From Bradyrhizobium sp. Ash2021 (GTDB taxonomy: Bacteria > Pseudomonadota > Alphaproteobacteria > Rhizobiales > Xanthobacteraceae), in the NCBI RefSeq assembly GCF_031202265.1, contig NZ_CP100604.1:434001-498000 (forward strand): a stretch of DNA of 64,000 nucleotides. Direction: 5' to 3'. The translations under genes and the position numbers were made by a program. Below are positions 46,917-50,593 of the stretch, piece after piece. The first letter of the stretch is position 1; each line of letters opens with the position of its first letter. The notes beneath the pieces are model-generated. The model was not told the origin of the DNA. It searched no databases and was given only the letters and a program-made list of their open reading frames with translations.

Positions 46917-48029
46917 ATGGCTGACGAAATCGCAACGACCACGGGCATCGCCCGCCATGGCGGGTCCCGGTTGCCTTCGGTGGACGTGGACAGCTTCAAT
47001 ATCGAGTTGAAAGACGACGAAGGCTTTGTCGGCGACCGCGCCAGCAAGGGCGCATTTCGCGCGATTTTCGACAAATGGCGGAAGCCGCTGCGCGAGTCAG
47101 ACAAGGACCCGTTCGGTGACGAGCCGTCTGACGAGATCAGCAAGAAGAAGCTCGACGCCATCCTGGTCGGTGACGATCTCGAGGCGTCCGCCGTCCTGCA
47201 CAGCGCGATCGAGGAGTTTGCGCAGGAACTGGCCTATGTGACGCGAAAATTCCTCAAGACCAAGGCGTGGGACAAGACCGAGCGCATTGTGGTCGGCGGC
47301 GGGTTTCGCGACAGCCGGTTGGGCGAACTCGCGATCGCGCGCACCCAGATCATCCTCAAGGACGAAAACCTCAAGGTCGATCTGGTGCCGATCCGCCTTC
47401 ATCCCGACGAGGCCGGCCTGATCGGCACGCTGCATCTGGCGCCGTCCTGGATCTTCGAGGCCCATGACAGCATTCTGGCGGTCGATATCGGCGGCACCAA
47501 TATCCGCTGCGGCGTGTTGGAGACGCGCTGGAAGAAGGCGCCCGACCTTTCCAAGGCCGCGGTGTGGAAATCCGAACTCTGGCGCCACGCCGACGATGAG
47601 CCGACGCGCGAGGGCGCGGTGAAACGGCTGGTCAAGATGCTGAAGGATCTGATCGCGGCGGCCGAGGCCGAAGGGTTGAAACTCGCGCCGTTCATCGGCA
47701 TCGCCTGTCCCGGCGTCATCAACGAGGACGGATCGATCGCGAAAGGCGCGCAGAACCTGCCGGGCAATTGGGAGAGCAGCAAGTTCAATTTGCCGGCGAG
47801 CCTGGTGGAAGCGATTCCGCGGATCGGCGATCACGACACTGCGGTGCTGATGCACAATGACGGCGTAGCCCAGGGTCTTTCGGAAGTGCCCTTCATGCAG
47901 GACGTCGAGCGCTGGGGCGTGCTGACCATCGGCACCGGATTGGGCAACGCACGCTATACCAACCGCAGAAAAGAAAACGGCAAGGACAAGGACGACAAGA
48001 AGACCAAGGAAAAGAAGACGAAGGATTAA
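46917..48029 (+). CDS. ROK-family sugar kinase-like protein with circularly permuted motif order
   Basis: 370 residues. The hexokinase-fold phosphate-1 motif LAVDIGGTNIRCG lies at about 188-199, followed by GIACPGV (261-267), NLPGNW (280-285), the catalytic-Asp motif MHNDGVAQG (about 312-320) and the phosphate-2 motif TIGTGLGNA (337-345). In ordinary ROK kinases DxGGT is near residue 10 and the protein ends with a helix, a GGG motif and AGLIGAA. Here that ending, EEFAQELAYVTR ... RIVVGGGFRDSRLGELA ... DEAGLIGTLHLA, stands before DIGGTN at about 99-175. So the chain appears circularly permuted. The CxCGxxGCxE zinc motif is absent. The last 20 residues are Lys/Asp-rich. Substrate unknown; an isolated gene. 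Confidence 0.8.
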   Translation: MADEIATTTGIARHGGSRLPSVDVDSFNIELKDDEGFVGDRASKGAFRAIFDKWRKPLRESDKDPFGDEPSDEISKKKLDAILVGDDLEASAVLHSAIEEFAQELAYVTRKFLKTKAWDKTERIVVGGGFRDSRLGELAIARTQIILKDENLKVDLVPIRLHPDEAGLIGTLHLAPSWIFEAHDSILAVDIGGTNIRCGVLETRWKKAPDLSKAAVWKSELWRHADDEPTREGAVKRLVKMLKDLIAAAEAEGLKLAPFIGIACPGVINEDGSIAKGAQNLPGNWESSKFNLPASLVEAIPRIGDHDTAVLMHNDGVAQGLSEVPFMQDVERWGVLTIGTGLGNARYTNRRKENGKDKDDKKTKEKKTKD

Positions 48030-49322: not shown

Positions 49323-49412
49323 GGAGAGGTGGCAGAGTGGTCGAATGCACCGCACTCGAAATGCGGCATAGGTGCAAGCCTATCGGGGGTTCGAATCCCT
49401 CCCTCTCCGCCA
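49323..49412 (+). tRNA. tRNA-Ser(CGA)
   Basis: 90 bases with encoded CCA. Acceptor stem GGAGAGG pairs with CCTCTCC; the anticodon loop CTCGAAA gives anticodon CGA; a long class II variable arm (CATAGGTGCAAGCCTATC) and T-loop GGTTCGAATCC follow. It reads UCG codons. A GIY-YIG protein gene starts 73 bases downstream. Confidence 0.97.
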
Positions 49413-49485: not shown

Positions 49486-49740
49486 ATGTGGTACGTTTAT
49501 TTCCTCGAACTCAGCAATGGCGACATCTATGTCGGTTCGACCGACGATCTTCGTCGTCGAGTCGCATCGCATCAACAAGGGCATGTCGTTTCCACGCGCA
49601 GGTACCTGCCGATAGTTCTTCGCTCGTATGTGGCGGTTGCTGATGAAGCAAGAGCTCGCAGCCTTGAGCGATATTTCAAATCAGGCTCAGGGAAAGCTTT
49701 TGCAAAGAAGCGCTTTCTCCCTTCACCGGCTACCCCTTGA
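49486..49740 (+). CDS. GIY-YIG nuclease family protein (small)
   Basis: 84 residues, a single domain. The motif is YVYFLELSNGDIYVGSTDDLRRRVASHQQGH (GIY replaced by the usual YVY ... IYVG form), then SLERYFKSGSGKAFAKKRFL. This is the UPF0213/YhbQ-like group, whose nuclease activity and role are poorly known. It is next to the tRNA-Ser gene and overlaps the 3' end of the convergent gene by 11 bases. Confidence 0.88.
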   Translation: MWYVYFLELSNGDIYVGSTDDLRRRVASHQQGHVVSTRRYLPIVLRSYVAVADEARARSLERYFKSGSGKAFAKKRFLPSPATP

Positions 49741-50593
49741 TAAACTGCCGGTAGTCCGGCTCCCGGTGGAACCAGAATTCGTAGCCGCTGGTGTTCTTCT
49801 GCATGGCGACGTCATGGATCGGCTGGTTGAGCGGAATGACCGGAACGTCGCGGATGCACAGCGCGATGAATTCCTTCACGGTGTTTTCGTATTCCGCGGC
49901 ATCGGTCGTGAAGCGCGCTTTGTCGATCAGCGCGTCCATCGCCTTGTTCTGGCAGGACGAGATGTTGAAGATCGAGTTATTGCCGTGGAAATTCCAGTAG
50001 AAATAGTGTTCGGGATAGTCGAGCCAACCGCTGAATCGATTTAGCGCCAGCGGTAGTTCCTTCTTGTTCAGCGTGGTCCGCCAATTGGCGCCTGGAATCT
50101 TGTTGATCGCCGCGTTGATGCCGATCTTGGCGAGGCCCTCCTGAACAAACACGACCCTGGGCTCGCCGACCGTCGCCGTGCCGGTGTCGAGCGACAGTGT
50201 CGTCTCCAGCCCGGTTTCGAAGCCGGCCTCCTTCATGAGCGCTTTCGCTCTGTCGAGGTCGGTGACATAGTGAAACGGCTGCGGCCACACCGGCTTTGAG
50301 ACGTCTGCGGGACCGGCATACATCGGAACGGCGCGGCCGAAGAAAGCGCTGCTCTGGATCTGCTCGTAAGGCATCGCGAAGGCGAGCGCTTGGCGCAGTT
50401 TGACGTTGTCAAAAGGCGGCATCGCCGTGTTCAGCGCAAGATACCAAAGCGCGTTCGGGATCGGCACGCTCGAAACCTTGACCTTGTCTTCCCTGATGAT
50501 CTGGTCGAAGTCGCGTGGCGCAAAGCCGCTCGAGAGGTCGGCATCGCCGCGCTCCAGCGTGGTCCGCCGCGTTCCGGCAGAGGAAAGTATCAC
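49730..50593 (-). pseudogene. C-terminal half of a peptide/nickel ABC substrate-binding protein
   Basis: 287 codons from GTG 50593. The sequence enters the SBP_bac_5 family in mid-domain (GTRRTTLERGDADLSSGFAPRDF) and continues normally to the end (LNTAMPPFDNVKLRQALAFAMPYEQIQ ... FWFHREPDYRQFIKG). Full members have about 520-550 residues with a signal peptide; the first ~230 are missing. In-frame sequence can be read upstream to about 50690 but loses family likeness. No permease genes follow. The break coincides with a change to less GC-rich DNA on its right, so an insertion or deletion probably cut the gene. Confidence 0.75.

Follow-up and report, generated by a model that had tools for sequence, protein, structure and literature searches.

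A ROK-like protein of Bradyrhizobium with its two lobes probably in swapped order

Kinases of the ROK family (PF00480), such as N-acetylmannosamine kinase (2yhw) and the ROK glucokinase of S. griseus (3vgk), have DxGGT, PG, (H)ND and GTG motifs in common, along with a long C-lobe helix, a GGG adenosine motif and a D(E)AGLIGA-type end. We take DxGGT, the Asp of ND and GTG to be the phosphate-1 motif, the catalytic residue and the phosphate-2 motif, respectively. Enzymes of the ASKHA superfamily work by hinged closure of two lobes, and the places where the chain passes from one lobe to the other are fixed. Here we describe a gene from Bradyrhizobium sp. Ash2021, located at positions 46917..48029 (+ strand) of a stretch of 64,000 nucleotides (contig NZ_CP100604.1, positions 434,001 to 498,000), which is called the window below. 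Its 370 amino acid product shares the ROK motifs, the long helix and the type of end listed above, and is unlike ROK kinases in that its lobes are swapped, the CxCGxxGC motif is missing, the ExGH motif is not clear, a Lys-rich tail is present and only half of the Pfam model is matched. The motif order, its conservation, the profile matches and the predicted-fold matches were all established by calculation. They lead us to consider, with a probability of roughly 0.88, that the protein adopts a single-chain, two-lobed ROK (ASKHA) sugar-kinase fold that has undergone a natural circular permutation.

Motif order, conservation and family matches

The open reading frame (ORF) starts with the ATG at 46917 and its stop codon ends at 48029; a TTG located 11 codons upstream of this ATG is a mechanical alternative start. 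Motifs typical of the ROK N-lobe occupy residues 185-350, and those typical of the C-lobe precede them, at about residues 73-177. The latter segment (47133..47447, + strand), which hhalign assigns to the C-terminal end of the ROK C-lobe, holds the long helix 88-113, the adenosine motif VVGGGF at 125-130 and DEAGLIG at 164-170. The former (47469..47966, + strand) corresponds to the ROK N-lobe together with the pair of strands that flanks the phosphate-2 loop, and holds phosphate-1 DIGGTN at 190-195, CPG at 264-266, the catalytic HND at 313-315 and phosphate-2 GTGLG at 339-343. A first-pass annotation, made by a model from the letters and their translations, had proposed that all diagnostic ROK motifs are present in rotated order. 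The motifs it quoted are indeed in place, namely EEFAQELAYVTR (99-110), RIVVGGGFRDS (123-133) and DEAGLIGTLHLA (164-175) of the C-lobe type, followed by DIGGTN, GIACPGV (261-267), NLPGNW (280-285), HND and GTGLGNA (339-345) of the N-lobe type, and most of their key residues are conserved in relatives. The GGG adenosine motif, G127-G129, is placed by hhalign on the VLGGG of ROK proteins, and sits before the N-lobe rather than after it.

The same swapped order is found in all 20 sequences of an alignment comprising the window protein and 19 relatives, wherein most key motif residues are invariant and the T of DxGGT is replaced by S in some relatives. In a larger alignment of 52 sequences (the window protein and 51 relatives picked from 240 listed), D190, G192, G193, N195, D315, G339, T340, G341 and G127-G129 are invariant, which bears out the proposal that the catalytic Asp and both phosphate motifs have been kept. 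A third, full-length set holds 27 sequences including the window copy (L001), with three short matches (L002, L003 and L016) excluded; one of the 27, L009, ends early at a stop before GTGLG.

The classical ROK zinc site is missing, as had also been proposed: a CxCGxxGC motif is impossible in the window protein because Cys occurs only at 198 and 264. The same motif is also lacking, as judged by regular expression, from one of 11 ROK proteins of canonical order (L030), such that it may not be universal. In the region where ExGH would be expected, H14 is invariant in both the 20- and the 52-sequence alignment, and D25 and N28 are conserved at 90% or more. When residues 10-79 were forced into alignment with the zinc region of ROK proteins, however, the result was not significant, and none of these residues is put forward as a replacement for ExGH.

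The chain ends after GTGLG in the charged tail that the first-pass annotation had described. This Lys-rich segment, residues 353-370 (47973..48026, + strand), is mostly disordered and varies among relatives, and the predicted local distance difference test score (pLDDT) is below 50 across residues 353-367.

In Pfam, residues 187-355 match positions 2-147 of the 294 in the ROK profile PF00480 (33.6 bits vs a gathering cut-off of 22.9), and there is no match of the window protein to any other Pfam family at expect values (E) up to 10. PF00480 is matched by 50 of the 52 family sequences at E up to 1. Seven NCBIfam matches are all of ROK or glucokinase type and far below their cut-offs, with the best stretches inside residues 180-356. 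The window protein has no match to the glucokinase family PF02685 at E up to 10, the best match among the 52 sequences has an E of 0.0013, and the cut-out C-terminal part scores 12.1 bits, below the cut-off of 22.1. Sequence databases alone would therefore see half of a ROK protein with a front part of no known family.

Profile and structure comparisons of the two halves

The family alignment was divided into residues 10-184 and 185-352, and hhalign was used to align each part to a profile built from canonical ROK proteins. For the first ROK profile, 20 proteins were parsed from the 30 loci L124-L153, of which 19 were used after the misparsed L133 was dropped; a second ROK set came from 11 of the 12 loci L030-L041. 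With the first profile, residues 73-177 of the front part align to ROK columns 205-302 of 308 (score 41.7, P 1.5e-5), and residues 187-345 of the back part align to columns 6-140 (score 47.9, P 1.4e-6). The best scores among 200 column shuffles were 25.2 for the front part and 31.7 for the back part. The front part scored 20.4 against the reversed ROK profile and at most 23.5 against ten decoy profiles. These decoys are profiles of genes and ORFs from the same loci, 11 of 29 candidates having had enough relatives; one (L119 7727-9155) proved to be the family gene itself and was removed to leave ten, and some represent the same gene from two loci and are not all independent.

When the ROK profile is doubled, the protein in its natural order aligns continuously, with residues 73-351 running along columns 205-454 and across the junction. 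The score for the first profile is 76.3 (P 2.4e-9), vs 46.1 and 41.2 for the halves, and the controls reached 16.5 (reversed ROK) and at most 30.9 (the ten decoys). Doubling the second ROK set gave 120.2 vs 104.2, where the front part alone scored only 25.0 in the same register. With the two sets merged, doubling gave 125.8 vs 85.6 and 51.0 (P 3.7e-16), and the front part alone scored 50.9 (P 4.9e-7). The continuous alignment crosses residues 174-184 (47436..47468, + strand), a region that includes helix 177-181 of the AlphaFold model and that would be the short linker joining the old C-terminus to the old N-terminus.

AlphaFold predicts one confident fold (pLDDT 86.7; predicted template modelling score, pTM, 0.83). 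The front lobe begins, after the disordered residues 1-8, with strands 11-14 and 22-27, followed by helices 38-42, 44-60 and 76-84 and the long helix 88-113. Strand 123-128 then runs into the GGG turn and is followed by helix 134-149, strand 155-158 and helix 163-174, the last of which corresponds to the C-lobe end. The N-lobe consists of strands 185-191, 196-202 and 215-222, helix 231-252, strand 256-264 leading into CPG, helix 292-299 and strand 309-314 leading into HND; beyond it, strands 332-338 and 343-349 flank GTGLG. By this layout the new termini would lie in the C-lobe, just beyond the strand that follows the phosphate-2 loop and ahead of the next C-lobe strand. Folding would bring the two phosphate motifs (phosphate-1 DIGGTN and phosphate-2 GTGLG) back together with the catalytic Asp of HND and the GGG motif of the adenosine side.

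Residues 182-351 and, in a model of their own, residues 18-170 match the same ROK structures, each on the half that the other leaves free. In 3vgk, positions 2-142 match the back half and 148-306 match the front half, with residues 21-170 of the front fragment aligned there. The corresponding ranges for back and front are 1-145 and 143-283 in 6q26, 82-230 and 235-385 in 1z05, and 405-554 and 553-711 in 2yhy. The four best VIA matches of the isolated front fragment are all ROK proteins, each on its second half. These matches run contrary to one possibility raised beforehand, that the N-terminal segment folds as something other than a ROK C-lobe. Likewise, no separate C-lobe ending follows GTGLG, as nothing ordered is predicted beyond the strand after it. 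The stretch of about 98 residues at the N-terminus, which the first-pass annotation left unexplained, is predicted to include the start of the C-lobe in residues 10-70 (46944..47126, + strand), a stretch with the first two strands and the first two helices of the model and with no Cys. This assignment comes from the AlphaFold model and the isolated-fragment alignment.

Several results weigh against a permutation. Swapping the halves had been suggested as a check, and it gave no single stronger match to ROK: the rotated single sequence scored 34.0 vs 33.6 bits in Pfam, which is almost no gain, and the rotated family profile scored 47.2 and 41.3 against the single ROK profile with no joint gain, the higher value being no better than that of a single half. 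The permutation therefore had to be tested on the doubled profile. At the level of sequence, residues 10-70 find no counterpart in ROK proteins, the merged ROK set included, and so the halves are linked across the old termini and not across the new ones. In addition, residues 1-184 alone match nothing in Pfam. With the isolated front fragment, Foldseek returned nothing at E of 0.001 or lower; the highest-ranking ROK protein (E 0.25, probability 0.94) comes just below an unrelated protein (E 0.22, probability 0.20). Nevertheless, the alignment to the doubled profile and the predicted structure support the circular permutation that the first-pass annotation had put forward.

Distribution and origin

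A homologue search gave at least 8000 candidates with E of 0.001 or lower. Within Bradyrhizobium, the gene is present in 114 of 117 genomes, including all 109 with a completeness of 90% or more and a contamination of 5% or less, and this breadth rules out an assembly artefact. More than one match is found in 16 of the 117 genomes, several of these being fragments. The window genome itself carries the remnant of a second copy (G000:C1:5968157-5968408, - strand), which is 55% identical over residues 268-352 and has two internal stops. A gene with 80% identity in a record titled Frankia sp. RB7 (L079, JAUEPE010000043.1) is listed among mostly Bradyrhizobium sequences, and the genome is possibly mislabelled. 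Among plasmids there are 207 records, mainly from Rhizobium (111) and Sinorhizobium (79, e.g. pSymB).

In a sample of the class, 13 of 289 genomes were matched, counting the window's own and one (G050) that matched weakly. In a sample of the phylum, 28 of 299 genomes were matched, 16 of them strongly, at E below 1e-90. The window's own genome is one of these 16, and three of them lie outside the class within the same phylum (G312, G475 and G492). The other 12 matches are weak, and 11 of the 12 loci parse as ROK proteins of canonical order. With a rotated query against 298 genomes, the match in all 16 strong genomes falls into two pieces whose order is swapped; the 12 weak genomes match only query positions 2-178, which is the N-lobe part. 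No close relative of canonical order was found with this query in the 298 genomes.

A tree of N-lobes from 66 sequences, for which 24 of the 27 permuted and 11 of the 19 ROK sequences could be parsed, places the permuted sequences in one group (24 of 24, support 0.82), and with few outgroups this is a weak test. A single, old permutation event is probably the simplest reading. Circular permutations usually arise by duplication, fusion and truncation. A tandem duplication was probably followed here by fusion and loss of the outer halves, after which the product would have been kept as a core gene. No duplication-fusion intermediate was seen among the sequences found.

Function, alternative readings and known systems

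The nucleotide and catalytic residues that are invariant in the 52 sequences make an ATP-dependent kinase the most likely function. The substrate would most likely be a small molecule, by kinship a hexose such as glucose, and the enzyme would work without structural zinc. We regard kinase activity itself as fairly probable. No other PF00480 protein and no PF02685 glucokinase was found in the window genome, where other hexokinase families were not searched. Queries with a PF02685 protein of the same genus and a canonical ROK protein of the same order also found nothing there, though such an empty answer is no proof. In the PF00480 search, a run over 120 genomes gave no match in the window genome and a run on that genome by itself gave this gene (E 1.0e-5), from which it follows that weak matches can be lost in multi-genome searches. 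Since no other ROK or PF02685 kinase was found, the gene encodes a candidate glucose kinase of this genome. In rhizobia without the usual glucose kinases the protein may, if active, fill that role.

Another possibility is that the permuted fold is right and that the protein is a sensor of sugars or nucleotides, or a kinase of something other than sugars, that uses the kept ATP site. The missing zinc site and the want of a clear ExGH sugar motif would fit this idea. So would the gene neighbours, which vary among loci and hence indicate no fixed sugar pathway, and the finding that PF02685 is also matched in 10 of the 16 strong genomes, such that the gene is not simply its replacement. A clean replacement of glucokinase was rejected on the same count; the six genomes with no such match are G000, G468, G484, G552, G554 and G475, the last not being among the matched rows. 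However, neither the catalytic Asp nor the nucleotide motifs vary among the 52 sequences, and there is no DNA-binding Pfam family up to E 10, including a winged helix of the NagC/Mlc type, in the window protein, whose first eight residues are predicted to be disordered, with strands 11-14 and 22-27 after them. Moreover, the trehalose-phosphatase gene otsB is the divergent neighbour at three loci (L167, L176 and L177, from R. johnstonii pRL10, Shinella and G519), which is a weak fit to glucose or trehalose metabolism. We therefore consider a sensor or non-sugar kinase unlikely, though worth keeping in mind, and its odds overlap those of the permuted fold.

It is very doubtful that the protein is a two-domain fusion in which an unrelated helical domain precedes a ROK N-lobe and the likeness to a C-lobe is coincidental. 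The Pfam blank over residues 1-184, the weak Foldseek match of the front fragment and the lack of a sequence match for residues 10-70 would all be in keeping with such a fusion. Set against these are the alignment of residues 73-177 with the end of the ROK C-lobe (P values of 1.5e-5 and 4.9e-7 with the first and merged profiles), at a score that none of the 200 shuffles reached, and the placement of all four best VIA matches on the second half of ROK proteins; furthermore, a ROK N-lobe without a C-lobe would have no adenosine site. An obligate domain-swapped dimer, wherein the sequence is permuted and two chains contribute to every active site, is more improbable still, as the short linker would permit swapping but the AlphaFold monomer is confidently one unit at the pTM given above.

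We therefore return to a circularly permuted sugar-kinase fold. On balance, and with slightly more reserve than for kinase activity, we lean towards a fuller account, in which a catalytically active, permuted ASKHA kinase evolved once, is a core gene of Bradyrhizobium and is scattered across Alphaproteobacteria and at least one other class. In that account the new termini would lie close after the phosphate-2 loop, the protein would be the only sugar kinase of ROK or PF02685 type found in the window genome, and it would be the first circular permutation recognised in the ROK family. No report of a permuted ROK protein was found among the papers listed in searches of the mostly open-access literature.

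Gene neighbourhood was set aside as a guide to function because it is variable and weak. The divergent neighbour in Bradyrhizobium is rplU. Genes for DUF892 (PF05974) lie near the permuted gene in two distant genomes (L166:7818-8360 and L170:7350-8066), and L171 has an apparently related ORF near it; a stress-gene neighbourhood is possible there. Downstream in the window are a tRNA-Ser (cga) at 49323-49412 (+ strand), a small ORF at 49486-49740 whose start presumably resembles a GIY-YIG nuclease domain, and an ORF at 49730-50593 (- strand) that by eye resembles an oligopeptide ABC transporter substrate-binding protein without its front part.

A permuted member that has been kept would show that the ASKHA fold does not need its usual connectivity, and would serve as a natural test of which links matter in folding and lobe closure. 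Since profile models presuppose a single order, many of the proteins that databases list as 'ROK family protein' would also be annotated over only half of their length.

Among known systems, the PF02685 glucokinases and the window protein presumably have the ASKHA fold in common. Their profile matches the N-lobe part (52.9), whereas the front part is unmatched (16.0), doubling brings no gain (54.3), and the window protein has its lobes in the opposite order. The same linear order might be presented by tandem hexokinases 1 and 2, in that the C-lobe of one copy is followed by the N-lobe of the next, and when the full model is searched with Foldseek, six of the top eight matches are proteins of this type. 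However, they have two complete copies per chain and the matched parts do not pack alike, with root-mean-square deviations of about 30 Å or more; sequential alignment of the full model to ROK entries gives a TM-score of roughly 0.35. A third case is ADP-dependent glucokinase, which we take to be of ribokinase-like fold. Between this enzyme and 2-dehydro-3-deoxygluconokinase there is a natural swap of segment order, in which binding-site residues come from non-sequential parts (PMC2213659). That case differs from the present one in being a segment swap in another fold and not a permutation of a ROK protein. We class the window protein as a circularly permuted homologue of the ROK kinases and not as a canonical member of the family, because it has neither the canonical order nor the zinc motif.
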